Shown here: piece by piece, positions 1 through 14,523 of the stretch
Position numbering within the stretch: position 1 is the first letter of the stretch
Layout: each line of letters starts with the position of its first letter
Assembly (NCBI GenBank): GCA_001464455.1
Contig: LNEI01000027.1
Span: 186,001-250,000 of the forward strand
Direction: 5' to 3'
Origin: Acidobacteria bacterium Ga0077534
GTDB taxonomy: Bacteria; Acidobacteriota; Blastocatellia; Pyrinomonadales; Pyrinomonadaceae
Length of the DNA: 64,000 nucleotides
Notes under the pieces: generated by a model
Seen by the model: only the letters and a program-made list of their open reading frames with translations
Told to the model about the DNA's origin: nothing
Databases searched by the model: none
Translations under genes and position numbers: made by a program

Positions 1-1
1 C

Positions 2-121: not shown

Positions 122-198
122 CGGGCGTTCGCCCCTGTTCACTTTGCCGACCGATGGCGTACTCAGTCGCGGAAATCGTAGCGGGGGAGGGGTAACTT

Positions 199-2664
199 AT
201 GATGGGAAATACTCAAACATCCACATTAACCCCTGCGGACGTAGCCGGACTTCGTTCGAGCTTTATTAACGACGAACTTATAAAGCAGGCCAACATCTAC
301 CGCGTCGATGAGCAGGAAGGCTCTGAGATCGTCGTTCAAAAGAGAGCGAATGGGCGTAGTTTCTCTGGCATCGTCTTTGAGTATCGCAACCCCGGCGACC
401 CGTATCCTTGTAAGAAAAGGCTTAGACGGGATAAGCCCGACATGGAACGTGTTGGCGGAGAGCTGAAAGAAAAGGGTAAGTATCTAAGCCCAGCAGGGGA
501 GCGGCAAAGATTTTACTGGCCGCCGAATACACTGAAAAGCTCGCTAAAAGACAGTTCAATTCCCGTCGTCTTTGTCGAGGGCGAGAAAAAGGCCCTTGCA
601 TTATCTAGGTGGGCTGAGATTGCAGGCGTTCGACTGGTCGTTATCGGCCTCGCGGGTGTTTGGAGCTTCAAAGGCACCATCGCCAAGAATGTAAAGGGAT
701 TACTTCCTGATTTTGAATGGCTGACTTGGCAAGGCCGTGAGGTTTACATTCTCTTTGATTCAAATGTTCTAACGAACCTGCAAGTTGCTGGAGCAAGATC
801 CGCCCTTGCCCACGAATTGAACCGGATGAAAGCCGAGGTTTTCACCATCGACCTTCCGAAAGAATGTGACGTCAACGGCGTAGACGATTATCTCGGAGCA
901 ATCGAGCAGCGAGACGGCCTAGAGTCCGCAATTGAAGCTGGCCACCGTCTATTCGCATCTAAGAAGCCCGCAAAGATAGCAAAAGTAAATCAGTCTGAAC
1001 AGATTCTTGGCTTCGCTTCCGACATCGAAGTATTTCACACGCCCGATCAGGAATGCTACGCGTTTCTTCCGGTTGATGGCCACATGGAAACGCGAAGGCT
1101 CTCTGAGAAGGCTTGTCGGATGCGTCTTGCCCAGAAGTTCTTTGAATCCGAGGGAAAGCCTCCGGGGTCGCAAGCCGTTCAAGACGCTATTGACGTTCTC
1201 AAAGGGCAAGCACTGTTTGAAGGTAAAGAGATTGAAGTGCATCTCGGCGTTGCAAAACACGATGGATGTATCTATGTAGACCTACGCAATGACGCTTGGC
1301 AGATCATCAAGATCGACACTTCGGGCTACTCGATCATTGAAAGTAAAGACGCTCCAGTGCGGTTTCGTAGAAGTAAAGGCATGAGGGCATTGCCCACGCC
1401 TTCAGGTAAGGGTGACATTTCACTGCTGCGGCGTTTTCTGAACATCCGTGACGGTGGTGACGAATGTGACGGTTGTGACGGTGGTTTCCTACTCATTCTA
1501 AGTTGGCTTGTCACATGCTTTCGCCCTGACATGCCTTTCCCGATTCTTGTTATAACAGGCCCGCCAGGAACCGCAAAGAGTACGACGGCAAAGGTTCTAA
1601 AAGAGCTTACAGACCCTAGCGTCCCATCTCACCGATCTTGTCCGCGTGACGTGCAAGACTTGATGATTGCGGCTAATAACGGCTGGGTAAATTCCTACGA
1701 CAACATCTCCAACATCCCTGACTGGCTGTCTGACGCTCTATGCCGTATAGCGACCGGAGGCGGATTTTCAACACGGACTCTGTATGAGAATGATGAGGAA
1801 ACGCTCTTCGACGCCAAGCGGCCCATTCTATTGAATGGTATCGGCAACTTCGCGAGCCGTTCTGATCTTATAGATAGGTCTGTGACCGTCCAGCTTAGTC
1901 CAATAACGAAAGAGGCTCGCCAATCAGAGCGACAGTTTTGGGCCGAGTTTGATGAACATCGAACGGCGATCTTCACCGGCCTAGTAATGGCGGTGTCGGC
2001 AGCCCTCAGAAAGATTGACTCTGTTCTGCTTTCGGAGTCACCGAGAATGGCTGACTTCGCTGAATGGGGAACGGCGGCAGAGGTTGCACTGGGATTCCCT
2101 GAAGGCTCTTTCATGCTTGCATACAACCGAAATCGCGATGCGTCACACTCTTTCGTTCTCGAAGGATCGACGTTAGCTGAGGTGCTGCAAGAATTATGCG
2201 AAGCCACCAAGCCTGATAATCGAGAGATTCTGTTGAAGGATTTCCTCGAAGAGATAAGAAAGCAGGCGGACATTTCGCCTGACAATCCTCGTACTAAGCG
2301 AAAGGACTTCCCGAAAACATCGAGAGGTTTACGCGGCGAACTTCAAAGACTCGATCCGAACTTGCGTGAGGTTGGTATTTTCGTTGAGTTTTTGGGCAAA
2401 ACTGGGCCTTCAGCAAGGAAAGGGGCTTCAGTCAGATTAGATTATATAGGCGAATCACCGTCACAACCGTCACAACCGTCACAAATCAATCAGAGTTCAA
2501 TAAATACCGAGACTTCAGAGTGTGACGTTCCGTGTGACGTTCTGTGTGACGTTAAGCAAAAGCCCATTAAAAGCCGGTGCGATTGCGGTGCGTATGACGT
2601 TATTAACCTACCTTGCCCAAATTGCGGCCAAATAATCGAGGATTACGCGGAGGTGAAGGCATGA
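199..2664 (+). CDS. Phage replication protein: TOPRIM (DUF3854-like) plus AAA ATPase plus zinc ribbon
   Basis: This 821-residue protein probably primes or unwinds DNA for prophage replication. Residues about 115-200 carry a TOPRIM-like fold with the acidic motif VFVEGEKKAL and the later YILFDSN, as in DUF3854 proteins attached to phage and plasmid helicases. A Walker A motif GPPGTAKST lies near residue 455, followed by SYDNIS and a sensor-like stretch RPILLNGI. The C terminus has a four-cysteine ribbon (CDCGAY, CPNCGQ). A strong purine-rich ribosome site GGGGGAGGGG precedes the ATG. The coding sequence contains iteron-like GTGACG repeats. Family placement is from motifs only; primase activity is inferred. 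Confidence 0.8.
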   Translation: MMGNTQTSTLTPADVAGLRSSFINDELIKQANIYRVDEQEGSEIVVQKRANGRSFSGIVFEYRNPGDPYPCKKRLRRDKPDMERVGGELKEKGKYLSPAGERQRFYWPPNTLKSSLKDSSIPVVFVEGEKKALALSRWAEIAGVRLVVIGLAGVWSFKGTIAKNVKGLLPDFEWLTWQGREVYILFDSNVLTNLQVAGARSALAHELNRMKAEVFTIDLPKECDVNGVDDYLGAIEQRDGLESAIEAGHRLFASKKPAKIAKVNQSEQILGFASDIEVFHTPDQECYAFLPVDGHMETRRLSEKACRMRLAQKFFESEGKPPGSQAVQDAIDVLKGQALFEGKEIEVHLGVAKHDGCIYVDLRNDAWQIIKIDTSGYSIIESKDAPVRFRRSKGMRALPTPSGKGDISLLRRFLNIRDGGDECDGCDGGFLLILSWLVTCFRPDMPFPILVITGPPGTAKSTTAKVLKELTDPSVPSHRSCPRDVQDLMIAANNGWVNSYDNISNIPDWLSDALCRIATGGGFSTRTLYENDEETLFDAKRPILLNGIGNFASRSDLIDRSVTVQLSPITKEARQSERQFWAEFDEHRTAIFTGLVMAVSAALRKIDSVLLSESPRMADFAEWGTAAEVALGFPEGSFMLAYNRNRDASHSFVLEGSTLAEVLQELCEATKPDNREILLKDFLEEIRKQADISPDNPRTKRKDFPKTSRGLRGELQRLDPNLREVGIFVEFLGKTGPSARKGASVRLDYIGESPSQPSQPSQINQSSINTETSECDVPCDVLCDVKQKPIKSRCDCGAYDVINLPCPNCGQIIEDYAEVKA
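1448..1483 (+). repeat. Iteron array A: four GTGACG units at 9-bp period
   Basis: GTGACG starts at 1448, 1457, 1466 and 1475, exactly nine bases apart, inside the replication gene. It encodes the D-G-rich stretch before the Walker A motif. The same core recurs in array B about 1 kb downstream. It could be a binding site for the encoded protein (origin in gene) or simply codon-level repetition of an Asp/Gly linker. Confidence 0.5.
2458..2553 (+). repeat. Iteron array B: three inverted plus three direct GTGACG units
   Basis: CCGTCACAA units repeat at 9-bp period from 2458 to 2487 (the reverse complement of the array A unit). They are followed by three direct GTGACGTT units at 2522, 2534 and 2546 with 12-bp period. 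Together with array A this gives ten copies of the same core in both orientations within one replication gene. The encoded segments are S-Q-P repeats and C-D-V repeats in the low-complexity linker before the zinc ribbon. Confidence 0.5.
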
Positions 2665-2855
2665 CACGAGAACAAAGAGACGAAGCAATAGCCCAGATCA
2701 AAAACTCTGACGCCTTTCTACCGATCAAGGCGCGGCGAATCGAGGAGATTATGAAGGAATACGACAGCCCGGATAACCCGGACTCGATAGAAGCAGCAAA
2801 GGATTTAGCACGGCGGGTTAGCCCGCAACTTTTGGAAATGATGGAAAGCAATTAA
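2661..2855 (+). CDS. Small unknown prophage protein, 64 aa
   Basis: The ATG overlaps the stop of the replication gene (ATGA), so the two are translationally coupled. The product is charged and probably helical (begins MTREQRDEAIAQ, ends LLEMMESN) with no signal peptide or membrane segment. No family recognised. An in-frame start farther upstream exists at 2613, but the ATGA coupling favours 2661. Confidence 0.65.
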   Translation: MTREQRDEAIAQIKNSDAFLPIKARRIEEIMKEYDSPDNPDSIEAAKDLARRVSPQLLEMMESN

Positions 2856-2871
2856 GGAGCGACGACAAATT

Positions 2872-3102
2872 ATGAGTACGAAACAAAGTAACGACTGGTC
2901 AATCAAAATCGTTGGCAAACAGTCCAAACAATCGACACGCGAATCACTCGCAAAGGCGGGTTTTAGCTCGACAGACGGCAGCGGAGCTGTCGTTATCACG
3001 GAGACGGAACTCCCACCAAGCGCACCCGTTGAATTTGGGCGGGAAGGGAAAATGCAATCTATGGCCGAAACTGTTGCGAAATTGAACAGCTTCGCGAAAT
3101 AA
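2872..3102 (+). CDS. Small unknown prophage protein, 76 aa
   Basis: Preceded by AAGGAG at 2853-2858 about a dozen bases before the ATG, in the same orientation and tight spacing as its neighbours. The product is polar, with a Ser/Thr/Lys-rich N-terminal third and a short C-terminal helix (ETVAKLNSFAK). No recognisable domain. Confidence 0.6.
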   Translation: MSTKQSNDWSIKIVGKQSKQSTRESLAKAGFSSTDGSGAVVITETELPPSAPVEFGREGKMQSMAETVAKLNSFAK

Positions 3103-3115
3103 AGGAGATACGAAA

Positions 3116-3601
3116 ATGAGTCAGGCAGCAGTATTAGAAGCAAAAATATTATCAGGCGAAAACGTTTCGCCTTCGGAACTTGCCGCAGCACAGGCAGCAG
3201 ACGCGGCTTCAAAGCGAGTTAATGAACTTCAGGCCGAACGAGCGGCAATCCTAGCCAAGGCCGATCGAGAGCGACGGGCCAAGGAAGCGGCACAGGCTGC
3301 GGTTTCGCTATTCAAACAGATCGATGACGTAGCGGTACAACGGCAGGCCGCTAACGATCGAATCAAGCAGACGGTGAAGGAATTGCTCGACAGCAGCCAT
3401 GAGAGCAACGAGCTTTTGCTGAAAGCCCGCGGGGTTATCGAATCCGCAAAAGGCATCGAGCCATCGGCAAGCCTTGGAATGGCTGCGAATGCTGACGGCT
3501 TCACTGCATACGGTTCAAAGGCATACACGCCCATCGCGGACTGGGAAACCGACGTTAGAAATCTGCTTCAGGCTGCAATCGTGGAGGCGAAACAATCATG
3601 A
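3116..3601 (+). CDS. Unknown coiled-coil prophage protein, 161 aa
   Basis: An AAAGGAG site lies about 10 bases before the ATG. The first 70 residues are Ala/Glu/Lys/Arg-rich with a heptad look (for example ELQAERAAILAKADRERRA), suggesting a long coiled coil. The C-terminal third is more globular and contains DWETDVRNLLQAAI. It lies just upstream of the terminase genes, so a DNA-packaging accessory or scaffold-like role is possible but is only a guess from position. The stop overlaps the next start (ATGA). Confidence 0.65.
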   Translation: MSQAAVLEAKILSGENVSPSELAAAQAADAASKRVNELQAERAAILAKADRERRAKEAAQAAVSLFKQIDDVAVQRQAANDRIKQTVKELLDSSHESNELLLKARGVIESAKGIEPSASLGMAANADGFTAYGSKAYTPIADWETDVRNLLQAAIVEAKQS

Positions 3602-4014
3602 CACCGAGATCAGAACAATTCGCACAATTCGCCGACACTCTAGCCGCAAGTATTGAGCGGGGCGATCCTCAAACCTATGAGAAGTTCAAGGAACGCAATC
3701 CGGGTACCACTATCTCGCAGAGCGACTTCCAAGAAGCGGTATTACTCGCAGAACACCGAGCGGCTCAAAGCTGGGGGCTTATCAAGCCGGAACGACGTTT
3801 GAGCCGTCAGACATTCGAGAGCCTTTCATCCGACGCACAGAGCCTCTTTATTAGCGAAGGCGGTACTGTATTCGATCCTCCTCCACCATCAGAGGCCGAC
3901 AAGCGGAAAGAAACGATGACATGGCCGAATGGCGCGACGATCACACGAGGACAGTACGAGTCGTTTACTCCGACTCAGCTCGAAGCGTTCTTGCAGCAGC
4001 AGGCAACAGCTTAG
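3598..4014 (+). CDS. Unknown prophage protein, 138 aa
   Basis: It starts inside the stop of the previous gene (ATGA overlap). The mostly helical product holds RRLSRQTFESLSSDAQSLF, then a linker with DPPPPSEADK, then a short C-terminal module with TWPNGATITRGQYESF. That last part resembles the C-terminal pattern of some minor phage structural proteins, but no family is recognised. It ends 93 bases before the small terminase gene. Confidence 0.6.
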   Translation: MTPRSEQFAQFADTLAASIERGDPQTYEKFKERNPGTTISQSDFQEAVLLAEHRAAQSWGLIKPERRLSRQTFESLSSDAQSLFISEGGTVFDPPPPSEADKRKETMTWPNGATITRGQYESFTPTQLEAFLQQQATA

Positions 4015-4061
4015 GTTTGCAGCTCGTCGTTTTCGCCCCACTGAAGCGGCGGGTTGCAATA

Positions 4062-4095
4062 GTGGAGGCTTTAGCGTGAGTGCCTAAGCCTCCAC
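4062..4095 (+). terminator. Stem-loop ahead of the terminase genes
   Basis: GTGGAGGCTTTAG (4062-4074) pairs with CTAAGCCTCCAC (4084-4095) with one bulged T and a 9-base loop. Only a weak T-containing tail follows (TTCAAAACTTT). It may be a terminator or attenuator closing the upstream small-gene block before the terminase start at 4108, which has no visible Shine-Dalgarno sequence. Confidence 0.45.
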
Positions 4096-4107
4096 CTTCA
4101 AAACTTT

Positions 4108-4479
4108 ATGAAAGACGAACTCACCCACAAACAACGGCTATTCGTAGAGGCGTATTTGATCAATCCTAACGCAACGGCAGCGGCACGGGAGGCGGGATAT
4201 AAAGGGAACGATCGCACTCTTTCGTCCATCGGAACGGAAAACCTTGCAAAACCTTTGATTCGTGCCTGCATTGATGCCCGGCTCGAACAAGTGATAATCA
4301 CGAAAAACCAATGGTTTCAAGAGGTTACGGACTTAGCAAGGACAGATGAAAAGGGTTCGGTGCGCATCGCAGCGTATGCACAGCTAGGAAAGGCTCTAAA
4401 CGTTACGAACAACTCGACGGTAAAGGTTGAAGGCGATATCGAAGTTGCCAAGGTTATCAAGCCCAAACGCAAGGACTAA
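4108..4479 (+). CDS. Phage terminase small subunit
   Basis: The N terminus follows the small-terminase (Terminase_2) pattern: LTHKQRLFVEAYL, then NATAAAREAGYKG, a helix-turn-helix used to recognise packaging-site DNA. The length of 123 residues is short for the family (usually about 140-180), and the C-terminal part (KVEGDIEVAKV) fits the oligomerisation or large-subunit-binding tail. The TAATG overlap with the next gene supports co-translation with the large subunit. Confidence 0.85.
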   Translation: MKDELTHKQRLFVEAYLINPNATAAAREAGYKGNDRTLSSIGTENLAKPLIRACIDARLEQVIITKNQWFQEVTDLARTDEKGSVRIAAYAQLGKALNVTNNSTVKVEGDIEVAKVIKPKRKD

Positions 4480-5798
4480 TGCAGGCAGCGGCTAACAAGA
4501 TAGAGGTCGATTTCTCGGATGAATCATTCTTCAACCGGGCTTATATCCCCCTGCTTGATGACTACTCGGAGTTTTTGCATCTGTACGGTTCGGCGGGTTC
4601 AGGTAAGTCTCGATTCGCGTGTCAGAAAGAGATAATCGAGAGCTTTGAGCCTGTACGACAGGGACGTAAAACCCTTTGCGTTAGGCAGTTTTTCAACACC
4701 CTTGCTCATTCGGTCTATGCCGAATTGAAAACGGTAATTGCAGAATGGTCATTCGAGGATTATTTCGACGTTCTCAAAAGCCCGTTGCAGATCACGAACA
4801 AGCTAACGGGCGTCACCTTCGTTTTCGTCGGTCTTGATGATGTCGAGAAAGTGAAGTCAATCAGCGGCGTCGATCGCATTCTGATAGAAGAGGCCACTGA
4901 GGTAACGTCTCGTAAAGTTCTCGATCAGTTACGCCTTCGCCTTCGCGGTTTCGAGCGGGTACAGGTGACGCTCTGTTATAACCCGGTCGATGAATTCCAC
5001 TGGTTAAACACTGAGATTCACCAGCAAAAGCCCGCTGGTCATAAGTTCTTGCATTCGACGTACAACGACAACGAGCAGCTCCTAGCGATCGATCCCAGCT
5101 ATGCAAAGTTTATTGAAAGCACTAAGGATACAAACCCGAATTACTACCGCGTCTATGGGCTAGGACTTTGGGGGCAAGTAGTCGAGGGGCTCGTATATAC
5201 CGATTACAGAACGGGTGTGGAATTCCCGCAAGCCCAGATCAAGCAGACGGTTAATAAACAGGGCTTAGCTTACGGGGGCGTTCCGTACTACGAGCAAGGC
5301 GATGACATTCATTTCTACGGCCTCGACTTCGGTTTCAGCGATCCCACGGCTCTAGTTGCTGGGCACGTTAGAGACGCATCGCCCAAAAAGGAATTGATAG
5401 TCAAAGAGCTGCTCTATCAGCCGGGGTTAGATGCTCCCGCGATGGTCGAGAAGTTCAAACAGATAGGAGTGAGAAAGGATGTGCAGATCATCGCCGACAG
5501 TGCCAGGCCGGAAATGATCGAGTCACTTAGGAAAGCGGGCTACCGTATTGCCCCTAGTGAAAAGGGGGCGGGGTCGGTGCTTACCGGGATTAACCGAGTC
5601 CGCAAATATTCGTTGCTGATAGCGGCTGGGTCAAAGAATATCATTCGGGAAATCAGCAATTATCAGAAGAACCAGATTCAAGGAATTTGGGTCGAAGAGC
5701 CTGCAAAGAACCAGATCGAACACCTCTTAGACGCTATGAGGTACGGCATCCAGACTCAAGACAGGATTGAATTCAGCACCTCGTCATTCCACATGTAA
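4479..5798 (+). CDS. Phage terminase large subunit, PBSX/Terminase_3 type
   Basis: This is the ATPase/nuclease motor that packages DNA into proheads. A Walker A-like motif GSAGSGKS lies near residues 36-43 and the Walker B-type ILIEEATE near 135. The C-terminal RNase H-like nuclease opens with FYGLDFGFSDPTALVAG, has IIADSARPEMIESL in the middle, and ends with the conserved HLLDAMRYG. The 439-residue length is normal for PBSX-family TerL. The ATG overlaps the small-subunit stop. It is notable that portal and capsid genes do not follow. Confidence 0.92.
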   Translation: MQAAANKIEVDFSDESFFNRAYIPLLDDYSEFLHLYGSAGSGKSRFACQKEIIESFEPVRQGRKTLCVRQFFNTLAHSVYAELKTVIAEWSFEDYFDVLKSPLQITNKLTGVTFVFVGLDDVEKVKSISGVDRILIEEATEVTSRKVLDQLRLRLRGFERVQVTLCYNPVDEFHWLNTEIHQQKPAGHKFLHSTYNDNEQLLAIDPSYAKFIESTKDTNPNYYRVYGLGLWGQVVEGLVYTDYRTGVEFPQAQIKQTVNKQGLAYGGVPYYEQGDDIHFYGLDFGFSDPTALVAGHVRDASPKKELIVKELLYQPGLDAPAMVEKFKQIGVRKDVQIIADSARPEMIESLRKAGYRIAPSEKGAGSVLTGINRVRKYSLLIAAGSKNIIREISNYQKNQIQGIWVEEPAKNQIEHLLDAMRYGIQTQDRIEFSTSSFHM

Positions 5799-5809
5799 CG
5801 ACGGGATTT

Positions 5810-6016
5810 ATGGGAACTATGGAAAGAACTACGATCAACACAGATTGCAGTCACTTCGGCTGCGAACGTAGCGGCTTCTGGATTGAAACCGCAAAGGACG
5901 GCACGAAGCGGCTATGCTTCAGAGTCCGGCACGACGGGCAAATTCACGAGCAGAAACTGAGTGAAGCCCACATAGCCACGATCTTCAGAAACGATCAACT
6001 ACGGCGGGCGATCTAG
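5810..6016 (+). CDS. Small unknown prophage protein, 68 aa
   Basis: It lies 11 bases after the large terminase gene. The sequence CSHFGCERSGFWIE followed by DGTKRLCFRVRHDGQIHEQKL suggests a small beta-rich fold, possibly with a Cys/His metal site; no family recognised. It occupies the place where a portal gene is normally found, but it is far too small to be one. Confidence 0.6.
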   Translation: MGTMERTTINTDCSHFGCERSGFWIETAKDGTKRLCFRVRHDGQIHEQKLSEAHIATIFRNDQLRRAI

Positions 6017-6050
6017 CCCACTCTCACAATTAGGTTCGGTGTCTGTTTGA

Positions 6051-6087
6051 TGCCTTTGAATCCGCCCCACGCGGAAGGACAAAGGCA
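6051..6087 (+). promoter_or_regulatory. Stem-loop covering the tape-measure ribosome site
   Basis: TGCCTTTG (6051-6058) pairs with CAAAGGCA (6080-6087), with an inner TCCGC/GCGGA stem. Both candidate ribosome sites (GGAAGGA at 6073-6079 and AAGG at 6082-6085) lie inside the hairpin, and the ATG follows at 6091. The structure could throttle translation of the tape-measure gene or act as a weak terminator. Confidence 0.45.
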
Positions 6088-6090
6088 TTT

Positions 6091-8625
6091 ATGGCACTCG
6101 GACAATCAAGCGATATCACATTACGGATCAGGGCCGACCACAAACAAGCGTCGGATGGCCTAGAGCAGACGGCGAAGGATGTAAAGAAACTCGAAAAAGA
6201 CGCGGTTGCAACGGGAAAGGCAATTGGGGAGTTTCTCGGTAATGGACTCGTTCGCACGGGGCAAGTTGCGGCAGCTGCGGCGGTGTCCATCGCTGTACTC
6301 ACTAAGACCACGGCGGACTATGGAAACGCTCTGCTAGAGCTTCAGCGTAAGACGGGCATTACTTCCGAGACGCTATCGGCCCTGCGGGTCAATGCTGAAA
6401 AGGCGGGGGTTTCGTTCGAGGATGTTAAGGGCATCGTCGAGGATTTCACCGTCAAGCTAGGTGAAGCGGCGGCTGGTGACAAAGATGCGGCTGAGAGTCT
6501 TGCTAAATATGGCGTAACGGCTAAGAGTACAGAGGCCGCGTTAGAGCAGGCTATTGCAGCGATTGCCCGCAAGCGGACAGCGGAAGAGAGAGCGGCAGCG
6601 GCTACCGCGTTGCTCGGTGACGAAGGCAAGGAACTGATCCCGGTCATCATTCAGATGTCCGGCTCGTTGTCGCGCGCCACGGAAGAGGCTAAGAAGCTGG
6701 GGCAAACAATGTCACAGTCAGCCCTTGAGGATGCCAAGCGATTCAGTGACGAACTAAAGAATGTTAGTACTCAAGCGGCGGCTACTGGGCGAACCTTTGC
6801 GGGGCCATTGCTTCGGGATTTTACAGGCACGATGTCGGAGATGTCGAGCGGGCTTGCTAAGAACAAAGGTGAAGTTAAGGCATGGGGCGAAGATGTCGCT
6901 AAGACCATCCGGGGCCTTAAAGCAGTAGCTCAAGAAGTTTACGACTTCAGCCAAACGACGGCGGGGCGGGCGTTATCCTTCCTGTTTTTCGGCAACCTAA
7001 TCACTTGGAATAAGAACCTTCAGGATATGGGCGGACCTGCGGGACCTGCGGGAGCCCCTCTACCTAATGACATTCCCGGTCGGCCCTTGTTCGATCCGTT
7101 AAACCTGACTCACTTGAACCCGACTACTCCCGGTAAATCGGGGACCGCGACGGACACTGAAGCAGCAAAAGCGGCGGCAGAAAAACGGGCAAGGGAAAGA
7201 GAGGCTGCATTAAAGCGTGAGCTGGAAGCTCAGAAAGATCACATCCGCTTGTTGATACAAACGCAGGTCGAAGGGGCGGAAAAGGCTCAGCAGTTATGGG
7301 AACAGTCGTTCCTTGACAGAAAAACCTCAGAGGATGAATGGCGGGATGTTAGCGAGGGCAATTTTCAGCGGTATTCCGAGAAAGTTAAAAAGATGCTGCG
7401 GGATGCCTTTCTGTTAGACAGTCAGGGCAAAACCCCGGCTGAAGTTAGCAACCTTCAGATCAGTCTTGACCGAGCGTTAAAGGCTGTTGACGACCAGATA
7501 GTTAAACTTCGCGGCGATAGAGAAAAGACGATCACCGGCGTTGTCGAGACGGAGGCTAAAAAGCGTACCGAGATCGAAAAGCAAGAGGCCGCAAGTCAGT
7601 TAGCCATTGCACGAGCTAAGGGCGATACATACATTGCGAATCTGAAAGAGGATCTAGCTTTAGGAATCCTCTCAGAAAGTGAGTATGCCCGGAAGGTAGG
7701 TGACTTCCGCGTTGCCCTGTTACAGCAAGAGCGGGCATTGACTGAAAGCCTCGATGAGCGGCTTGTGCTTGATGAGCGGATCGCTCAGCAGATACTAGAA
7801 AACTCAAAGGCTATCCGTGACGCATGGGGCAAAGAGGCGGACGCATACCAGAAGTTAATTGACCAGCAGAAAGAGCGTGAGCTGGTACTCCCTAACACGC
7901 TCGAAACGCCGACAGATGCCACGCAAACGGGCGGGAGTACAAAGTCTCTGTTTGGCTTGGGTGGATCGCTCAAAGAAGTGACTACTAGCCTTGCTGAAAT
8001 GGGCAAGGGGGCTATATCGAGCTTCGCTAACGGTGTCGGCTCGATAGTCGAGCAGTTCGTATTGCTTGGCACGGCAGGGCCGAACGCAATGAGAAAGCTA
8101 ACAGCGTCTGTGTTAGCCGGATTAGCGGCACAGGCGGCTGTTAAATCGCTTTTCTACCTTGCAGAGGGCATTGCAGCACTCTTCTGGAATCCAGCGGCGG
8201 CAGCGGGCTTCTTTCAGGCTTCCGCGATTATGGCGGGCATCGCGTTAGGTGCTGGCGGTGCTGGTCGAGCGGTTGCCGGGAGTGCCTTCCAACAATCATC
8301 AAGCGGATCATCGGCGTTTGGTAGTTCTACGTCGAGCAATGCCGGGCTTAACTTCACTAATCCGTTTGGTGGATTCGGGGCAATGCAAGAGAAAACCAAT
8401 AACGTTCTAGCGGCGGTCACCGACCGAACTAACGCGATGCTTGGCTATGTCGGCGAAGTTGTCGAGCGACTCGATCAAAAGATAACCACAGCAACGCCGG
8501 GAGCGGTATTCGTGGCGGGTATTGATGGAAACGAAAATAACGTCTTTAACGCCGTTAACACGGTATTGGAAAACGACGGAACGCGTAGCACTCAGCTATT
8601 CAGATCACTAGGAATGTACTACTAA
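6091..8625 (+). CDS. Phage tail tape-measure protein
   Basis: The tape measure sets tail length and helps DNA entry. The 844-residue protein has the typical layout: helical N terminus (HKQASDGLEQTAKDVKKLE), the module KTGITSETLSALRVNAEKAG seen in many tape-measure proteins, a Pro/Gly linker near residues 310-355, long coiled coil about 360-600, and hydrophobic Ala/Gly-rich segments near 665-735. The length fits a medium siphovirus tail. Its immediate neighbour is a chaperone-like pair placed downstream, whereas the usual order has it upstream. Confidence 0.9.
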   Translation: MALGQSSDITLRIRADHKQASDGLEQTAKDVKKLEKDAVATGKAIGEFLGNGLVRTGQVAAAAAVSIAVLTKTTADYGNALLELQRKTGITSETLSALRVNAEKAGVSFEDVKGIVEDFTVKLGEAAAGDKDAAESLAKYGVTAKSTEAALEQAIAAIARKRTAEERAAAATALLGDEGKELIPVIIQMSGSLSRATEEAKKLGQTMSQSALEDAKRFSDELKNVSTQAAATGRTFAGPLLRDFTGTMSEMSSGLAKNKGEVKAWGEDVAKTIRGLKAVAQEVYDFSQTTAGRALSFLFFGNLITWNKNLQDMGGPAGPAGAPLPNDIPGRPLFDPLNLTHLNPTTPGKSGTATDTEAAKAAAEKRAREREAALKRELEAQKDHIRLLIQTQVEGAEKAQQLWEQSFLDRKTSEDEWRDVSEGNFQRYSEKVKKMLRDAFLLDSQGKTPAEVSNLQISLDRALKAVDDQIVKLRGDREKTITGVVETEAKKRTEIEKQEAASQLAIARAKGDTYIANLKEDLALGILSESEYARKVGDFRVALLQQERALTESLDERLVLDERIAQQILENSKAIRDAWGKEADAYQKLIDQQKERELVLPNTLETPTDATQTGGSTKSLFGLGGSLKEVTTSLAEMGKGAISSFANGVGSIVEQFVLLGTAGPNAMRKLTASVLAGLAAQAAVKSLFYLAEGIAALFWNPAAAAGFFQASAIMAGIALGAGGAGRAVAGSAFQQSSSGSSAFGSSTSSNAGLNFTNPFGGFGAMQEKTNNVLAAVTDRTNAMLGYVGEVVERLDQKITTATPGAVFVAGIDGNENNVFNAVNTVLENDGTRSTQLFRSLGMYY

Positions 8626-8630
8626 TCATT

Positions 8631-9137
8631 ATGAACAAACACTTAGCAGCGTACAAAGCAAAGGCTCCGCAGGTAATCGTTGATCTAACGGTGCCTAGCG
8701 GTTTTACATTCAAATTCGAGAAACCCTCGAAGTATTCGGTTCTATTCCGCTACGCTCAGATGCCGCAAGCACTGGCGGGTACTGCGGCTAGTGCGTGGAT
8801 AGAGCAGGGGCTTATAAAACCCGACCAGACTGATAAGGCGGTCGAAACGGAAACCGCGATTCAGGAGGGAGCAGAAGTGCTTCGTAGAATCTGCGAACTC
8901 AGCGTTAGTCCTAAGCTGGTAGTCGGAGAGGCCGTCTCTGACGATCAATTCTCGACCGATTGGCTTGATGAACCTGACACTGAGTTTTTGATCCAGTGGG
9001 TGCAATCAGGCGGTAACATCGCGGCAGTGAGCGGAGGTGATCCGGGCGCTCAGCAGCTCGGAAACTTTCCTGAAGAGCGGGGATCGAACACTATGGCTAG
9101 CGCTAGCCGCAAGAAACGCGGGAATGCGTCCAAGTGA
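8631..9137 (+). CDS. Tail-assembly chaperone-like protein (upstream, G-like frame)
   Basis: The 168-residue product opens with a beta-rich segment (VTVPSG-type motif LTVPSGFTFKFEKPSK) and a helical region (DDQFSTDWLDEPDTEFLIQWV) typical of siphovirus tail-assembly chaperones that bind the tape measure during tail building. The last 35 residues are low complexity and overlap an alternative frame that looks far more protein-like. This fits a G/GT arrangement in which some ribosomes shift into the other frame. The gene begins 5 bases after the tape-measure stop without a clear ribosome site. Confidence 0.65.
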   Translation: MNKHLAAYKAKAPQVIVDLTVPSGFTFKFEKPSKYSVLFRYAQMPQALAGTAASAWIEQGLIKPDQTDKAVETETAIQEGAEVLRRICELSVSPKLVVGEAVSDDQFSTDWLDEPDTEFLIQWVQSGGNIAAVSGGDPGAQQLGNFPEERGSNTMASASRKKRGNASK

Positions 9138-9339
9138 GCTTAGCGGCATGTATTCGACGTATGGCCCGGACTCTATCGAGGCTCTTGATTTCGATCTAAC
9201 CTGTGCTACACGCATCGAACTATATGAGGGTGTTTGCCGCGAAGATCAGGCCATTCGAATAGCCGTGTCAGTCGGCAAACTTCTAGGCGGTTCAGCGAGT
9301 CAAAATGACACACAACAGGAAGCGGTGGAAATATGGTAA
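9037..9339 (+). CDS. T-like extension of the tail chaperone, reached by frameshift
   Basis: This frame is +1 (equivalently -2) to the preceding ORF and is open from 9031 to 9339. It reads LWLALAARNAGMRPSELSGM, like the start of GT-type extensions in siphoviruses where a helix is followed by R-P-S-E-L. The region overlaps the first frame by about 100 bases and has no credible ribosome site (GTG at 9037, ATG at 9123 and 9147 are alternatives). A codon pair AAC TTT CCT at 9063-9071 allows tRNA-Phe to slip from TTT to TTC. Expression as a fusion is inferred, not shown. Confidence 0.6.
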   Translation: MIRALSSSETFLKSGDRTLWLALAARNAGMRPSELSGMYSTYGPDSIEALDFDLTCATRIELYEGVCREDQAIRIAVSVGKLLGGSASQNDTQQEAVEIW

Positions 9340-9596
9340 TTAACGACGAAACACGAAAGGTAATAATAGCGGGCGTTGCTCGTATGACGCTCTCACAGGA
9401 GCTTACAAAGGCTCTGATGGCCCTTTGCCTACCTTCAGCGATAGCACGGGGTGTATTCAGCACGATCAATGAGGCAAGTGAGAAGCCTCCAGTTCTTAAG
9501 CTAGACAGAAAGAAGATGATCGCCCGGTTAGATCAGTTCAGGGCTAGGCTGGTGGAACGGGAAGCGATGGAAGCACGGAGGCCAGTCATTCATTGA
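9333..9596 (+). CDS. Unknown prophage protein, 87 aa
   Basis: The ATG lies inside the end of the previous frame (7-base overlap), indicating translational coupling with the chaperone pair. The product is helical and basic in its C-terminal half (LDRKKMIARLDQFRARLVER). No family recognised; by position it may be a small tail or cell-lysis accessory. Confidence 0.6.
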   Translation: MVINDETRKVIIAGVARMTLSQELTKALMALCLPSAIARGVFSTINEASEKPPVLKLDRKKMIARLDQFRARLVEREAMEARRPVIH

Positions 9597-9653
9597 TTAT
9601 TGCGTCGATTTGAAATATGATGCCGTTCAAAACTTCGGGAGGCTCCTAACAAC

Positions 9654-10295
9654 ATGAAAGTCATTGTCTTAATCTGCGCGGTGTTATCGCTCGCAGCGGC
9701 GGCGTCAGCTCAGGTCAGTATCGATGACCTCAAAGCCCGCGCGAAAAAGGAAAAGTTGAAGGACCTGATAATTCAGTACGACAAGTTCAAAGACAAGAGC
9801 CTGATATCTACGAAGCCGCAAAATCTAATCGGATTCGGCGAGTCGTTTGCAGTCGGACTAGCGGATAATCTGGCGTCTAGCCCGCATGGATCAGGTAGAA
9901 TGACGGGTCATCCAACCGTTCTCTTGATGTCCGTAGGAATTGAGTTTAAAGGTGATCGCTTAGAGCAGGATACCGATATGCTGGCCGTACTCTTTACCAG
10001 TAATAGCAAGGGCTGGGTGTTCCTGAAGGGTGACACCAACCTCTATATTCTACTTGATGATGAGCGTATAGAGATTGCCCCGGTTGCCTCCGGCAATGAC
10101 ATAAATTTACGAAGCGTCACAGAGACTTTAGGCTTCGGAATATCACGCACGGATCTTGAACGTATACTAAAGGCCAAGAAAGTCGAAATGAAACTTGGAG
10201 ATACGATGCCTCGCAAGTGGAAGGATGACTGGTCGAAGCGAATACGGGCACTGCTAACGCTTTTGAATAAGCCTGGAGCAGGTAGTCCGGCCTAA
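9654..10295 (+). CDS. Secreted hypothetical protein, likely prophage cargo
   Basis: A GGGAGG ribosome site precedes the ATG. Residues 1-19 form a clear signal peptide ending A-S-A-Q. The mature part has a YDKFKDKSLISTKPQN motif, an internal segment with LKGDTNLYILLDDERIEI and a C-terminal SRTDLERILKAKKVEMKLG. Secreted proteins of this look are familiar from acidobacterial host genomes. That makes it a likely moron (host-type gene carried by the prophage) rather than a virion protein. Function unknown. Confidence 0.65.
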   Translation: MKVIVLICAVLSLAAAASAQVSIDDLKARAKKEKLKDLIIQYDKFKDKSLISTKPQNLIGFGESFAVGLADNLASSPHGSGRMTGHPTVLLMSVGIEFKGDRLEQDTDMLAVLFTSNSKGWVFLKGDTNLYILLDDERIEIAPVASGNDINLRSVTETLGFGISRTDLERILKAKKVEMKLGDTMPRKWKDDWSKRIRALLTLLNKPGAGSPA

Positions 10296-10302
10296 AGGGA
10301 TT

Positions 10303-10713
10303 ATGAACCGTCTAATATTGCTATTGTCGCTGATTGTTCTCGCTTTCTCCGTATCTGCTCAAAAACGGGAATATGACTATGGAAAGATCGCAGAGTTGAA
10401 AGGTCTTACAAAGTTCTACGTTAACGCAAACGCAGGGGATCGAGAGGCTATCGTTAAGCTGCTCGACGGGCAGAGCGGGCTATCTCTAGTCGATAGTTCC
10501 GACGATGCGGATTTCCTTATAGCATTTGAGCAATTTCCTAGCCGTCAATTAGGTGCAGGGCATATCGCATCAGGGCAATTCGATGCGTATATCCGGCAAG
10601 GCGAAAGGTTGCGGGCTGTCTGGGTCAAAGAGGATACGGACGGGGCATTTAAGCAAGCGGTCGCGAAAAAGTTAGCTAAGAAGTTCCTGAAAGAATATGC
10701 GAAAGTTCAATAA
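10303..10713 (+). CDS. Secreted hypothetical protein, second cargo gene
   Basis: It starts 7 bases after the previous gene, so the two form an operon, and it is followed at once by a strong terminator. A signal peptide covers residues 1-19 (ends S-V-S-A-Q). The mature protein of about 117 residues has a small alpha/beta look (GLTKFYVNANAGDREAIVKLL, then DADFLIAFEQF) and a lysine-rich C-terminal helix. No family recognised. Confidence 0.65.
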   Translation: MNRLILLLSLIVLAFSVSAQKREYDYGKIAELKGLTKFYVNANAGDREAIVKLLDGQSGLSLVDSSDDADFLIAFEQFPSRQLGAGHIASGQFDAYIRQGERLRAVWVKEDTDGAFKQAVAKKLAKKFLKEYAKVQ

Positions 10714-10716
10714 ATG

Positions 10717-10744
10717 AAAGAAGGTCGCCGAAACGACCTTCTTT
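10717..10744 (+). terminator. Perfect 11-bp stem terminator, usable from both sides
   Basis: AAAGAAGGTCG (10717-10727) pairs perfectly with CGACCTTCTTT (10734-10744) around a CCGAAA loop. The flanking A and T tracts suit termination in both directions, which is apt because plus-strand genes end here and the leftward block ends at 10797. Confidence 0.85.
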
Positions 10745-10796
10745 GTTCAAACGTTCTAGGGCTACAAAGCTAACGCTTCATGTTGGGTGAAGCAGC

Positions 10797-11063
10797 TTAA
10801 CGCGGCAGCTTGCAGTCTACCAGCAACCAAACAAGTCGCCCCGTGGATGCGTCTATAAAAGCGATCCCGTTATCGTGCGGGCGAACGTGTAAGTCATTCG
10901 TTATCCCTTGCATTAGAAACTCTCGTAGATCAAACCCATTTGCATCATCAATAATGCCTGATAGGTCGCCTAGCCGCTTATTAGTGTTGATATTTGGAAA
11001 CGCTACGACGTTTGATGCGGCCTTTACGTCGCCCCGTCCGTGTTTCGTGGTAGTCTTTTTCAT
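10797..11063 (-). CDS. Small unknown prophage protein, 88 aa (leftward block)
   Basis: The start MKKTTTKHGRGD is chosen because a GGAG motif lies 9 bases upstream; the longer frame from 11108 adds 15 residues without a ribosome site. After a basic tail the protein contains LSGIIDDANGFDLREFLMQG and a beta-like end (GIAFIDASTGRLVWLLV). It is the last gene of the leftward early block. No family recognised. Confidence 0.55.
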   Translation of the reverse strand: MKKTTTKHGRGDVKAASNVVAFPNINTNKRLGDLSGIIDDANGFDLREFLMQGITNDLHVRPHDNGIAFIDASTGRLVWLLVDCKLPR

Positions 11064-11136
11064 AGTTCGATTCTCCATTTTGTAATTGAACGATTGAAGG
11101 GCTTTCATTACTTGGCGGTTATGAAAGCCTTTCTCA

Positions 11137-11595
11137 TTACGCAGCCTCTAGGGCCTGCTCAAGTGCTTGCTTAACGTGCGGGCATCCATTCTTAGCTCGA
11201 CAGTCACAGACGGCCTTACCGTTGGTTACGGCTACCGTGAAAACGCCAACACGGTAGCGTTCGACGTCCGTTGTCTCTTCCGCAATCCCATGCCCGTTAG
11301 TTTCTTGCCTCCCGGCATCAAATCCCGCATTGCTTAGCGCCCGGCCTATCGCTGACGTTTCGCAGTTTTCAACGTGGAACTTTTTATTTACTTGCGAAGA
11401 TCCGGCAACCTCGGAAGCATGGCCGACGCTGTACGGGCTTGCATCATCCGGCTGGCGATACAGCTCAGCACGGATAACAACAAACTCACGGTCAACGGTG
11501 ACGATGCTGGTCTGTATGCGTCCTTCGGGGTGTTTCGCGTGAAACGCCTTCAGACGTCTGCTCACTGGTGAATATTGGTTTATATCGAACATCAT
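11137..11595 (-). CDS. ERF/ssDNA-annealing-like protein with C-terminal SWIM zinc finger
   Basis: The segment ENCETSAIGRALSNAGF matches the hallmark helix of many phage single-strand DNA binding or annealing proteins (ERF-like and related), where E-x-x-E-T-x-A-I-G-R-A-L is conserved. The C terminus holds CDCRAKNGCPH, the CxCx(n)CxH pattern of a SWIM finger, known in Shu2/SWS1 recombination factors. An AGGAGG site lies just before the tandem ATG ATG at 11595/11592; the second ATG has the better spacing. A role in prophage recombination is inferred. The gene overlaps nothing and follows the 110-aa ORF in the same operon. Confidence 0.6.
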   Translation of the reverse strand: MMFDINQYSPVSRRLKAFHAKHPEGRIQTSIVTVDREFVVIRAELYRQPDDASPYSVGHASEVAGSSQVNKKFHVENCETSAIGRALSNAGFDAGRQETNGHGIAEETTDVERYRVGVFTVAVTNGKAVCDCRAKNGCPHVKQALEQALEAA

Positions 11596-11600
11596 GCCTC

Positions 11601-11933
11601 CTATGCGTTTAAAACTGCCTTGAGCGTTTCCCTTTCGGCGTTTCGCATCCAAGCTAGATCACGGTGTAGACCTATCTGGAGCATCCGCACGGCACCGCTA
11701 GGGCTGCCACCTTCTACTCGATAGGCTTTACCGCATTGCGTACTCGCAAAGAACCGACCGTCAAGATCACGCATGACACACACGCGAAGGCGAAAGCCGG
11801 GGCCGCATAGGTTGATATAGTCGAAGTCTCTGCTCTGATCTTTCATTAAGTCTTGATCGAGCTTTAGTAGACGCGGGTGTTTCGGCGGTAGCTGTCGCTT
11901 GGGCCGATCGTTTCTGTGAATCCATGTACTCAT
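11601..11933 (-). CDS. Unknown first gene of the leftward prophage operon, 110 aa
   Basis: The start MSTWIHRNDRPK is set by GGAGG with 7-base spacing; a frame from 11954 would include the ribosome site itself. The protein is basic at its N terminus and contains RDFDYINLCGPGFRLRVCVMRDLDGRFFAS, which suggests a small beta domain. No family recognised. It is transcribed from the palindrome-controlled leftward promoter. Confidence 0.6.
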   Translation of the reverse strand: MSTWIHRNDRPKRQLPPKHPRLLKLDQDLMKDQSRDFDYINLCGPGFRLRVCVMRDLDGRFFASTQCGKAYRVEGGSPSGAVRMLQIGLHRDLAWMRNAERETLKAVLNA

Positions 11934-11969
11934 TACTTTTCCTCCTTCAGTCATTTCGACTGTGAGAAT

Positions 11970-11999
11970 AATATACTATCTTAAGAGAGTATATGTCAA
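11970..11999 (-). promoter_or_regulatory. Leftward sigma70 promoter of the prophage early block
   Basis: On the minus strand TTGACA (11999-11994) is followed after 18 bases by TATATT (11975-11970). Transcription would start near 11963 and reach the 11933 start with a GGAGG site. The spacer is filled by the 24-bp palindrome. Confidence 0.75.
11971..11994. promoter_or_regulatory. 24-bp operator palindrome between the leftward -35 and -10
   Basis: ATATACTATCTT and AAGAGAGTATAT form an inverted repeat with 22 of 24 positions symmetric about CTTAAG. A second copy of the left half, ATATACTATCTT, occurs at 12017-12028 and runs into the -35 box of the rightward promoter. A repressor bound here would block both promoters; the adjacent XRE protein is the obvious candidate. 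Confidence 0.75.
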
Positions 12000-12025
12000 T
12001 AGCGTAGCTATCAAAATATACTATC

Positions 12026-12054
12026 TTGACAGATTATTTTTAAGGGGGTATAAA
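12026..12054 (+). promoter_or_regulatory. Rightward sigma70 promoter of the XRE gene
   Basis: TTGACA (12026-12031), a 17-base spacer and TATAAA (12049-12054) form a near-consensus promoter. The expected start point, six to seven bases after the -10, coincides with the ATG at 12061, so the transcript would be leaderless. The half operator at 12017-12028 overlaps the -35. Confidence 0.8.
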
Positions 12055-12060
12055 TGAAGT

Positions 12061-12285
12061 ATGATTGCAGACGTGATAAAAGTACGACTCGAAGAATTGC
12101 TGGAGGAACGCGGCATAACCTTGTACCGCCTAGCCAAAGATTCAGGCATCGCCTATGAGAATCTTCGGAAGCTCAAGAACGGGGATGCTACGCGCATTTA
12201 CTTTGAGACGTTAGACCGTCTCTGTGAAGCCCTAAAATGTGATCCGTGCGATCTACTGACGCGGGAAGTCACCGAAGGCCATTAG
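12061..12285 (+). CDS. XRE-family helix-turn-helix regulator, Cro/YozG-like, 74 aa
   Basis: A small DNA-binding protein: the HTH spans about residues 10-60 with ITLYRLAKDSGIAYENLRKL and ends with the ERLCEAL-type helix (DRLCEALKCDPCDLL). Proteins of this size and pattern (YozG, Cro-like) act as single-domain repressors. It is divergent from the leftward block and sits beside a 24-bp palindrome, so it probably controls the switch and its own promoter. No dimerisation or cleavage domain is present, unlike a full CI repressor. An out-of-frame ATG at 12054 opens a 35-codon frame that is judged spurious. Confidence 0.8.
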   Translation: MIADVIKVRLEELLEERGITLYRLAKDSGIAYENLRKLKNGDATRIYFETLDRLCEALKCDPCDLLTREVTEGH

Positions 12286-12509
12286 GCATTGGTTTTTTGA
12301 TCTTTGACAACTGAACCAGTCGAATCGAAAGGCGGGGTGATTACCTGTACCTGATTTCGTAACGCTATACGGCGTTACGGGTTAATATAGAGTTTAAGCC
12401 TGTATCTGGAAAGCACCCTGTATCGACCTGTAACACTCAGTAAGATAATGGGTTTATCTCGTTTCCAGTCATATAGAAAACTCTAGCATAATCGCGGCGA
12501 TCTATGCAG
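12286..12509. other. Non-coding prophage end: CCTGTA repeats and a short hairpin
   Basis: No gene is seen here. The stretch holds four copies of CCTGTA (near 12345, 12399, 12418 and 12430), mostly followed by C/T, and a hairpin of CGTAACGC (12358-12365) with GCGTTACG (12372-12379). Short direct repeats beside an attachment site are often integrase arm or excisionase sites, which is the suggested reading; they are too short for certainty. Confidence 0.4.
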
Positions 12510-12576
12510 AAGCCCACGCGTAAGCACGGGCGATACACGCGAGTTAGAGGTTTCGCCCTTGCTTACGCGCGGGCTT
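12510..12576. repeat. 24-bp arm inverted repeat at the prophage/host border
   Basis: Arms 12510-12533 and 12553-12576 match at 22 of 24 positions once inverted and enclose a 19-base loop. It lies 45 bases before the alaS fragment. It could terminate transcription leaving the XRE gene, protect the host fragment from read-through, or be part of the recombination site. No U-rich tail follows. Confidence 0.6.
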
Positions 12577-12608
12577 TCGCAAAATCGCGTGCTTTGCTGC
12601 GAATGTAA

Positions 12609-12614
12609 TATAAT
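12609..12614 (+). promoter_or_regulatory. Consensus -10 box just before the alaS fragment
   Basis: TATAAT lies at 12609-12614, seven bases before the ATG at 12622. No good -35 is visible at 16-18 bases upstream. If active, it would give a leaderless message for the truncated AlaRS. Confidence 0.4.
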
Positions 12615-12621
12615 CAAGACA

Positions 12622-14523
12622 ATGAGCAGCTACGGAGAATTGACCGAAACACAACAGTTTGCGAGCCGTGTGATAGCCGACCATGCGCGCTCGACGGCGT
12701 TCGCTATTGCGGACGGCATCCTGCCCGGCAACGAAGGGCGAAATTACGTCCTGCGCAAGATAATGCGCCGCGCCATCTACCATGGCCGCGAGCATCTGGG
12801 CCTGCATGAACCGTTTTTCTATAAGGTTTGTGACGTTGTCGTAGACGAGATGCACGGAGCGTTTCCTGAACTCGCGACTCAGCGCGATTTTATCGGAAAG
12901 ATGGTGCGGATCGAGGAAGAGCGGTTTGGGAATACGGTCACGGTCGGCCTCGGTAAACTGAATGATCTGGGCATTACCTCCTCTACGCCCAGGGATAACG
13001 ATCTGTTCCTGTCGATCGGCAAACTTTACGATACGTTTGGCACGCCGCGGGATCTGATCAGGGTTTTTCTCGAAGAGAAGGGATTGGAGTTTGAAGAAGA
13101 GTATTTTAATTCCAGATTTGATGCAGCTTTGCAGGAGCTCCAAAAACAGGGCAGCGTCGGGAAGACCGAACGAAAGGGTGAACCCTCGCCCGTCTATGCT
13201 GCGCTGCTTGAGAAGGTCGGTTCAAACCGTTTCCACGGTTACGAGGCTACGCAGATCTCAGATGCAAAGATCGTGGCGATACTCGACGGTGAGACTGCGG
13301 TCGATGAGCTTACGGCTTCGGCCCAGGGCAGCGTAGTGCTTGATAACACGCCGTTTTATGCCGAGGCGGGCGGGCAGGTTGGCGATACGGGTGTCTTGGT
13401 CGGGGCTGAATCGAGGGCAACAGTTGCCGATACGTATTCGCCTGTGTCGGGACTGATCATTCACAAAGTAATAGTTACGAGCGGAACGCTTCGCGTTGGG
13501 GATGAGGTCGTTGCGAGTGTCGATGTGGAAAAACGCGATGCGACGCGGCGAAATCATACGGCGACGCACCTCGTACACGCAGCTTTGCGCGAGGTTTTGG
13601 GCACGCACGTTAAGCAAGGAGGTTCGGTCGTGGCGCCGACATTCCTGCGCTTCGATTTTACGCATTACCAACCGCTTGGCGCAGCTGAGATCGCTGAGAT
13701 CGAAGACCTTGTAAACCGCGAGATCCTACGCAACGATCCTGTAAACACGAACGTAATGCCGATCGAAGAGGCGATACGCGGTGGGGCGATGGCCTTGTTT
13801 GGTGAAAAATATGGGTCGGATGTCCGCGTTCTGAGCGTCGGCGACGGAGCTTTTTCGAAAGAACTCTGCGGCGGCACACACGTGCGGGCGACCGGTGACA
13901 TTGGCTCGTTCAAGATCACGTCAGATGAGGCGATCGCGTCGGGTGTTCGGCGTATTCGTGCGATCACGGGGCTCGATGCCTTTGCGCGTTTTCGCGACGA
14001 CGAAAAACTCATCGACGCTTCGCTCGGCGCTTTAAACACGCAAAGGGACAATTTACCGAACGCCATCGCTCGTCTTCAGGAAGAACTGAAGAAGACCCGC
14101 AAGGAGATGGACGAGCTGAAGCTGAAGATGGCGCTCGGCAGTGGGCAGGGGTCGGTGGCCAGTGGTCAGTCGAACGGCGATGAGAGTCGCGAGATAAATG
14201 GAGTCAAGGTTCTAGGCAGGATCGTTGAAGGCCTCGATGGGAACGGTACCCGTCAGTTGTCGGATACGCTACTCGCTCGGCTCAAGTCGGGCGTCGTTGT
14301 TCTCGGACGCAAGGACGAAGGTAAGGTCGGCATCATTGTCCGCGTGTCTGACGACCTGACCGGCCGGGTCAAGGCCGGCGACGTCATTCGCGAGATCGCC
14401 CCGATCGTTGGCGGCCGCGGCGGCGGAAAGGCCGACATGGCCGAAGGCGGCGGCACCGAACCCGACAAACTTAACGAAGCTATCGATGCAAGCTATGGCG
14501 TCATCGAGCGTATGTTGGCTTAG
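12622..14523 (+). CDS. alaS: Alanine-tRNA ligase lacking its N-terminal catalytic domain
   Basis: The 633 residues align with E. coli AlaRS from about residue 270 on. RVIADHARSTAFAIADG and YVLRKIMRRAI belong to the tRNA-recognition domain, NHTATHLVHAALREVLG and CGGTH are the editing-site HxxxH and CxxxH motifs, and GGRGGGKADMAEGGG is the C-Ala domain. Class II motifs 1, 2 and 3 are all missing because the prophage ends here. The frame is undamaged, so disruption is recent or the piece is still expressed. Codons upstream of 12622 are in frame but are not AlaRS-like. On its own it could edit Ser/Gly-tRNA but not charge tRNA-Ala. Confidence 0.88.
   Translation: MSSYGELTETQQFASRVIADHARSTAFAIADGILPGNEGRNYVLRKIMRRAIYHGREHLGLHEPFFYKVCDVVVDEMHGAFPELATQRDFIGKMVRIEEERFGNTVTVGLGKLNDLGITSSTPRDNDLFLSIGKLYDTFGTPRDLIRVFLEEKGLEFEEEYFNSRFDAALQELQKQGSVGKTERKGEPSPVYAALLEKVGSNRFHGYEATQISDAKIVAILDGETAVDELTASAQGSVVLDNTPFYAEAGGQVGDTGVLVGAESRATVADTYSPVSGLIIHKVIVTSGTLRVGDEVVASVDVEKRDATRRNHTATHLVHAALREVLGTHVKQGGSVVAPTFLRFDFTHYQPLGAAEIAEIEDLVNREILRNDPVNTNVMPIEEAIRGGAMALFGEKYGSDVRVLSVGDGAFSKELCGGTHVRATGDIGSFKITSDEAIASGVRRIRAITGLDAFARFRDDEKLIDASLGALNTQRDNLPNAIARLQEELKKTRKEMDELKLKMALGSGQGSVASGQSNGDESREINGVKVLGRIVEGLDGNGTRQLSDTLLARLKSGVVVLGRKDEGKVGIIVRVSDDLTGRVKAGDVIREIAPIVGGRGGGKADMAEGGGTEPDKLNEAIDASYGVIERMLA
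14137..14171 (+). repeat. Heptamer tandem repeat inside the alaS linker
   Basis: Five units of seven bases (GGCAGTG, GGCAGGG, GTCGGTG, GCCAGTG, GTCAGTC) encode a Gly/Ser/Gln linker between the coiled coil and the C-Ala domain. The style matches the intergenic stutter repeats near 38.4, 40.0 and 48.0 kb. Confidence 0.6.

Follow-up and report, generated by a model that had tools for sequence, protein, structure and literature searches.

Alanyl-tRNA synthetase (AlaRS) is the essential enzyme that attaches alanine to its tRNA. It is described as having one prototype architecture throughout biology, with Nanoarchaeum equitans as the stated exception (PMC10036535). According to that account, the N. 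equitans enzyme is made from two genes (alpha and beta), the cut falls inside the tRNA-recognition domain, and the beta part raises activity and confers G3:U70 specificity; the AlaRS of the related nanoarchaeon Nst1 is described as not split (PMC3655853). In A. fulgidus AlaRS, the residues reported to read G3:U70 are N359 and D450 (PMC10036535). The same source presents the Tupanvirus Mini-AlaRS as one chain that has lost the editing and C-Ala domains, and a passage in PMC11580382 mentions fused as well as fissed forms of AlaRS with reference to the N. equitans work. One paper among the open-access full texts searched used the phrase "split AlaRS", and none of the texts listed described a split AlaRS from bacteria (subscription papers lay outside this search).

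Analysis of a Pyrinomonadaceae genome revealed an AlaRS that, as described for N. equitans, is encoded by two separate genes, alaS-N and alaS-C. Judged from the description of the N. equitans cut, the two enzymes are divided at different places: here the cut lies at the border of the catalytic and tRNA-recognition domains and leaves both G3:U70 readers in the C-half. Furthermore, the split is seen across a bacterial genus, whereas N. equitans is an archaeon and the related Nst1 is described as unsplit. By analogy, N. equitans can serve as a precedent for AlaRS parts working together, though it is cut elsewhere. The Pyrinomonadaceae enzyme differs from full-length bacterial AlaRS (TIGR00344) in consisting of two polypeptides from two genes, which together give near-full profile coverage. 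Like the Tupanvirus Mini-AlaRS, as that protein is described, it departs from the four-domain plan, but here the chain is cut and nothing is lost. We consider this very probably a native two-gene split AlaRS whose halves would assemble in trans. A bacterial genus would then separate the alanine-activating core from the G3:U70-reading part, and the split could serve as a natural experiment on the way in which catalytic cores acquired tRNA identity.

The gene alaS-C (12622..14523, plus strand) lies in the window, the 64,000-nucleotide stretch of contig LNEI01000027.1 (C27) analysed here, whose base 1 is C27:186001. It encodes a 633-aa AlaRS without the catalytic domain: the profile match covers TIGR00344 (alaS) positions 262–847, and the domain matches comprise PF01411 positions 264–550, tRNA_SAD (editing) and DHHA1/C-Ala in an undamaged frame. 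These matches bear out a sequence-only reading of this DNA in two respects, as it had recognized an AlaRS with editing and C-Ala domains in an undamaged frame and had noted that the class II catalytic domain is absent from this ORF. The longer form in the ORF list, with a TTG start at 12559, appears unlikely because the proteins of relatives begin at ATG 12622; 7 nt before this ATG there is a −10-like TATAAT (12609..12614, plus strand) in a leaderless-like arrangement. The structural model of alaS-C (mean pLDDT 81.4, pTM 0.49) matches AlaRS structures in a structure search, with an rmsd of 9.5 over the whole chain that limits trust to its domains.

The sequence-only reading had also concluded that the entire catalytic domain was removed, but this domain is intact on the same contig. 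An AlaRS profile search of the genome placed it at C27:182910-183716 on the minus strand (profile positions 1–259), within alaS-N (C27:182907-183728, minus strand), a complete 273-aa ORF (MTGNEIRAKF...EFTAQLAT) with its own start and stop. This gene lies outside the window, 2.3 kb to its left, directly adjoins a phage integrase, and is 15 kb from alaS-C on the opposite strand. It covers Pfam PF01411 positions 1–258, and the two genes jointly span TIGR00344 positions 1–247 and 262–847. The cut falls between profile position 258, where the N-half stops, and 264, where the C-half begins. Aligned to the solved AlaRS chain 9jc7, the N-half reaches residue 260 and the C-half picks up at residue 263, indicating that almost nothing is lost at the cut. 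For annotation, the consequence is that the C-half alone scores above the NCBIfam threshold for a full alaS (498 versus 457 bits, TIGR00344), while the catalytic half fails (371 versus 457 bits). The AlphaFold model of alaS-N is poor (mean pLDDT 66.5, residues 24–96 below 50) and too weak for use. In this 4.2-Mb genome of 32 contigs, which is 97.9% complete, the AlaRS matches are one N-half and one C-half, and the genome search found no second alaS, which had been one of the options proposed. The option of a split enzyme, by contrast, gains support from the separate N- and C-half genes found genus-wide.

Searches with PF01411 gave AlaRS matches in 40 of the 41 genus genomes, and no match spans both parts. 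The N matches end at profile positions 257–271 and the C matches start at 241–266, where overshooting match ends are read-through of stops or flanking codons. The N-part is present in 40 genomes (partial in G016) and the C-part in 39, some of them incomplete where a contig ends; this search returned no AlaRS match in G088 (85% complete) and no C-half in G094 (94%). In 32 of these 39 genomes the two parts sit on separate contigs, although the assemblies are fragmented and distance is not proven by that. Both are on one contig in seven genomes, 15–19 kb apart in G000, G019 and G084 and 124–415 kb apart in G092, G096, G022 and G003. In the other families of the class, 14 of 15 genomes were read and all are fused; the 15th (G037), which was left out of the fused/split reading, has both matches in one frame. 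In the other genera of the family, 42 of 78 genomes were read, giving 34 fused, seven split and one with the N-half alone (G047), and the other 36 stand outside this classification. By this genome comparison, the AlaRS split is native to the genus and was not made by the prophage described below. The nearest records with names are metagenome bins, whose titles read Pyrinomonadaceae, Acidobacteria/Acidobacteriota, Chloracidobacterium, Blastocatellia or bacterium. In G019 and G084 (L111, L091; L115, L095), the halves are on the same strand, 17–19 kb apart, with host genes between them, an arrangement that is possibly intermediate to full dispersal.

Both AlaRS halves look functional when judged by patterns that were made for this analysis and read in 21 genus genomes (20 plus this one). 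Patterns for class II motifs 1–3 match all 21 N-halves, and those for the editing motifs HxxxH and CxxxH match all 21 C-halves. The A. fulgidus residues N359 and D450 align with N37 and D137 of the C-half, as counted in a printed alignment. The aspartate of YDT is present in 21/21 C-halves and the asparagine context in 20/21, G020 keeping the N with S for G two residues beyond; one C-Ala pattern matches 10/21 C-halves only. The two tRNA-Ala genes found (GGC and CGC) both have G3:U70, which occurs in none of 29 other distinct tRNAs, a count taken from 30 of 42 tRNA loci. Values of dN/dS were 0.015–0.055 for the N-half (nine of ten pairs, dS being saturated in one) and 0.048–0.178 for the C-half (10/10 pairs); the ten pairs were chosen by hand, and several have dS above 1. 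A C-half that is a decaying or repurposed fragment, serving as an editing or regulatory factor while another enzyme charges tRNA-Ala, would have a parallel in the editing-only AlaX proteins, which align with its editing part, but is very unlikely given that there is no other AlaRS match in the genome, that the whole tRNA-recognition domain with both G3:U70 readers is retained at low dN/dS, and that the C-half is paired with an N-half in 39 of the 40 genomes with matches.

For the native two-gene enzyme, a mechanism is proposed in which fission of alaS would have occurred in this Pyrinomonadaceae genus at the loop between the catalytic and tRNA-recognition domains. In this scheme alaS-N, as the class II catalytic core, would activate alanine, and alaS-C, with the two putative G3:U70-reading residues, the editing site and C-Ala, would position the acceptor end of tRNA-Ala, give G3:U70 specificity and edit errors. 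The separately transcribed halves would assemble non-covalently.

The closeness of the halves in this genome appears to reflect a real local rearrangement. Here truB (C27:122.4 kb) and transketolase (113.4 kb) are neighbours; in relatives, truB is beside the N-half and transketolase beside the C-half. The C-side gene order of C27 gives way to the N-side order at about 118.2–119.4 kb, which indicates that the breakpoints upstream of both halves were joined to each other within this one contig, and this reciprocal rejoining in turn points to a real rearrangement rather than a chimera. An assembly or binning chimera, which the sequence-only reading had considered in the form of a chimeric contig, could be suspected from a record that is a 32-contig assembly. 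It is nonetheless most unlikely, because the halves are also separate in the genus genomes with matches, including the two-contig G089, and the displaced ends are joined on the same contig. We propose that the rearrangement would have made alaS-N and alaS-C a divergent pair in this genome, and that a small prophage would then have integrated at the alaS-N start codon, which would have kept the frame and moved the native promoter 14.7 kb away.

The prophage has a length of 14.7 kb and is bounded by an exact 18-bp direct repeat, ATCTCGTTTCCAGTCATA. One copy, the attR core, lies at 12456..12473, and the identical attL core lies left of the window at C27:183712-183729, where it contains the alaS-N start; TATGACTGGAAACGAGAT, the complement of the core, is the start of alaS-N. 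The element thus has an integrase beside an att site and a direct-repeat core, both features of site-specific integration. The right part of the element, 12.5 kb, occupies 1..12473 of the window, with the left end and the integrase left of it. It encodes, all on the plus strand, a primase-like protein (199..2664; weak match, E 0.001) and, by protein family matches, the small (4108..4479) and large (4479..5798) terminase subunits, a tail tape measure protein (6091..8625) and a small HTH repressor-like regulator (12061..12285). A scan of 19 proteins (17 of the 21 prophage ORFs listed and two more) against PHROGs recognized terminase and tape measure as the only structural or packaging genes and no portal, capsid or protease gene, which falls short of a complete tailed prophage; the element may be a decayed prophage or a satellite. 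The integrase is shared by 228 phage records, all below 60% identity, and the terminase has four relatives in viral contigs, one at 65%. The att core was also found in two viral contigs that show no similarity to the element or to alaS, and these occurrences were taken as chance.

One class of tyrosine-recombinase prophages inserts at a gene end, where the coding sequence is restored. The present element resembles them in that the integrase adjoins attL and the core preserves the reading frame, but differs in its target: it sits at the 5′ end of one half of an essential synthetase and thereby displaces the promoter and not the coding sequence. Contrary to the sequence-only reading, the prophage does not end inside alaS: the right attachment site is followed by 148 bp of host DNA before the ATG of alaS-C, and of the statement that prophage sequence abuts this gene only the side, the left, holds. 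That reading had further suggested that the 5′ part of alaS might be found by following the contig leftward to the other prophage border, and that matching ends with a short core repeat would support integration. The 18-bp repeat is such a core, and the 5′ part does lie past the other border, as an intact gene; its place was therefore anticipated correctly, but its opposite strand means that excision cannot restore one alaS. By sequence, the excision product would be a divergent alaS-N/alaS-C pair about 150 bp apart rather than a single gene.

A prophage with an integrase and an 18-bp direct repeat between the two halves could bring to mind a lysogenic switch, in which the phage broke a single alaS in this strain and excision restores the gene. 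Such a switch is hardly credible, since the orientation of the halves refutes it unless the contig is wrong, the 18-bp core coincides with the alaS-N start codon and not with the inter-domain junction, and the other genus genomes with matches are also split. None of those genomes yielded a close relative of the integrase (over 41% identity); other integrases in the genus are 38–41% alike and lie on contigs or in places away from alaS. The prophage thus does not interrupt a gene that is whole in relatives, as the genus relatives are split without it, and their alaS-N start region is uninterrupted and has a similar upstream element (a cross-genome comparison, not this strain's empty site). It is scarcely conceivable that the halves are joined after translation by a split intein or belong to an invertible DNA switch, as their inverted orientation might suggest, because there is no intein-sized extension between profile positions 258 and 264, none of the 25 longest of 103 inverted-repeat pairs has arms at both breakpoints, the att sites are direct repeats, and 32 of the 39 genomes with both parts carry them on separate contigs.

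Returning to a native split with a later prophage insertion, the 148 bp of host DNA from attR to ATG 12622 holds −10-like elements of both alaS-C and alaS-N. On the host minus strand right of attR, TATGCTAGAGTTTTCTAT, then the core ATG, is like the region upstream of alaS-N in relatives, which indicates that the phage integrated at the start codon and displaced the promoter. The displaced native −10-like element of alaS-N is TAGAGT (12480..12485, minus strand), which resembles the upstream regions of relatives. A TAnnnT ending 4–10 nt before the ATG is present at 21/21 N-half starts, where the count for G000 uses the displaced native element, and at 21/21 C-half starts, compared with means of 3.4 and 3.9 in shuffles and with 64 of 424 control ORF starts, for which the first ATG was used. 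The present alaS-N upstream region of the lysogen has no TAnnnT in the 4–10 nt range (0/1). Between the two promoter-like elements lies a palindromic repeat of two inverted 32-nt arms (12505..12581). The genome contains 16 copies of its 21-bp core, two of them at this site, a reversed control gave none, and Rfam gave no match in 11900–15000. The palindromic repeat was also observed at L135:8220-8282, about 60–120 bp upstream of that genome's alaS-C match.

Gene order around alaS was compared across the family. In fused relatives, a hydrolase, truB and recX lie upstream of alaS and an aldehyde dehydrogenase lies downstream; in the genus, the N-half is mostly on the truB/recX side and the C-half on the aldehyde-dehydrogenase side (20 genomes; not every gene in each). 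The seven split genomes from other genera (L066, L067, L070–L074) have adjacent halves with 0.5–1.1 kb between them, and these inserts carry toxin–antitoxin-like, nucleotidyltransferase-like or transposase genes. G072 has a BrnT-like protein, G131 a PemK/MazF-like protein with a small partner, G050 a Y1 transposase and G081 a similar ORF, judged by eye. A nucleotidyltransferase-like gene with a small partner is found in G055, G048 and G127; identity to the G055 copy is 84% for G048 and 63% for G127, whose copy matches Pfam weakly (0.002, below cut-off). This gene occurs in 42 of 119 family genomes, mostly away from alaS among the matches listed, and at the 17 of 20 listed loci that are not alaS no module-split gene was seen, the flanking ORFs being judged by eye. 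One family shows fused, adjacent-split and dispersed states, and the fission steps of an essential enzyme may be readable from them.

The loop at the cut also distinguishes the two states. Of 48 fused sequences, 45 have M or L before RV, all 28 split ones have C, A or S there, and the three fused exceptions all belong to genus g16 and have long linkers and a split-type loop. Trees of the halves require at least five state changes for N and six for C, of which well-supported branches force three and five; they hold 75 rows and were made by a quick method, with G123 dropped, G047 without a C-half, and one C row 18% filled. The genus forms a single clade in each tree, with SH-aLRT 99 (N) and 97 (C). 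Over the 30 nt that precede RV, two split members of g42 show 63–87% identity to split-type genes from genera outside g1 and g42 and 40–50% identity to two fused g42 genes, a contrast that is overstated because the identities are ungapped and the split-type loop is one residue longer. The flanks of this loop region are in part closer to the own genus, and the pattern suggests local transfer or convergence.

A broader and rather doubtful reading joins two propositions: that the split junction is a spreading state moved between genera by local recombination, and that lysogeny puts alaS-N under a phage-borne upstream region. The spreading junction would comprise a new start and a changed loop ending in FAC, together with inserts, which would be toxin–antitoxin-like, nucleotidyltransferase or Y1 transposase genes. 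If true, such a junction would convert a fused, essential synthetase into one made from two genes and would give selfish genes a place to land.

The split may also occur elsewhere in the phylum. In a sample of 396 genomes, most of which were judged only by best E-value and the matches listed, the best AlaRS match is weak in at least eight (G160, G167, G177, G253, G369, G376, G421 and G480), and three (G271, G387 and G465) gave no AlaRS match in this sample. A recheck of 20 genomes included ten from other families, and eight of these ten are likely contig-end fragments or in-frame insertions; G217 and G249, from other families, have an N-terminal AlaRS piece only. Within g16 (L068, L069, L062; one record is named Aridibacter famidurans mag.1), the fused alaS genes have linkers of 24–69 aa and may be re-fused split genes. 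In G123 (L077), alaS is part of an open frame of 1749 aa that is extended considerably at the N-terminus.
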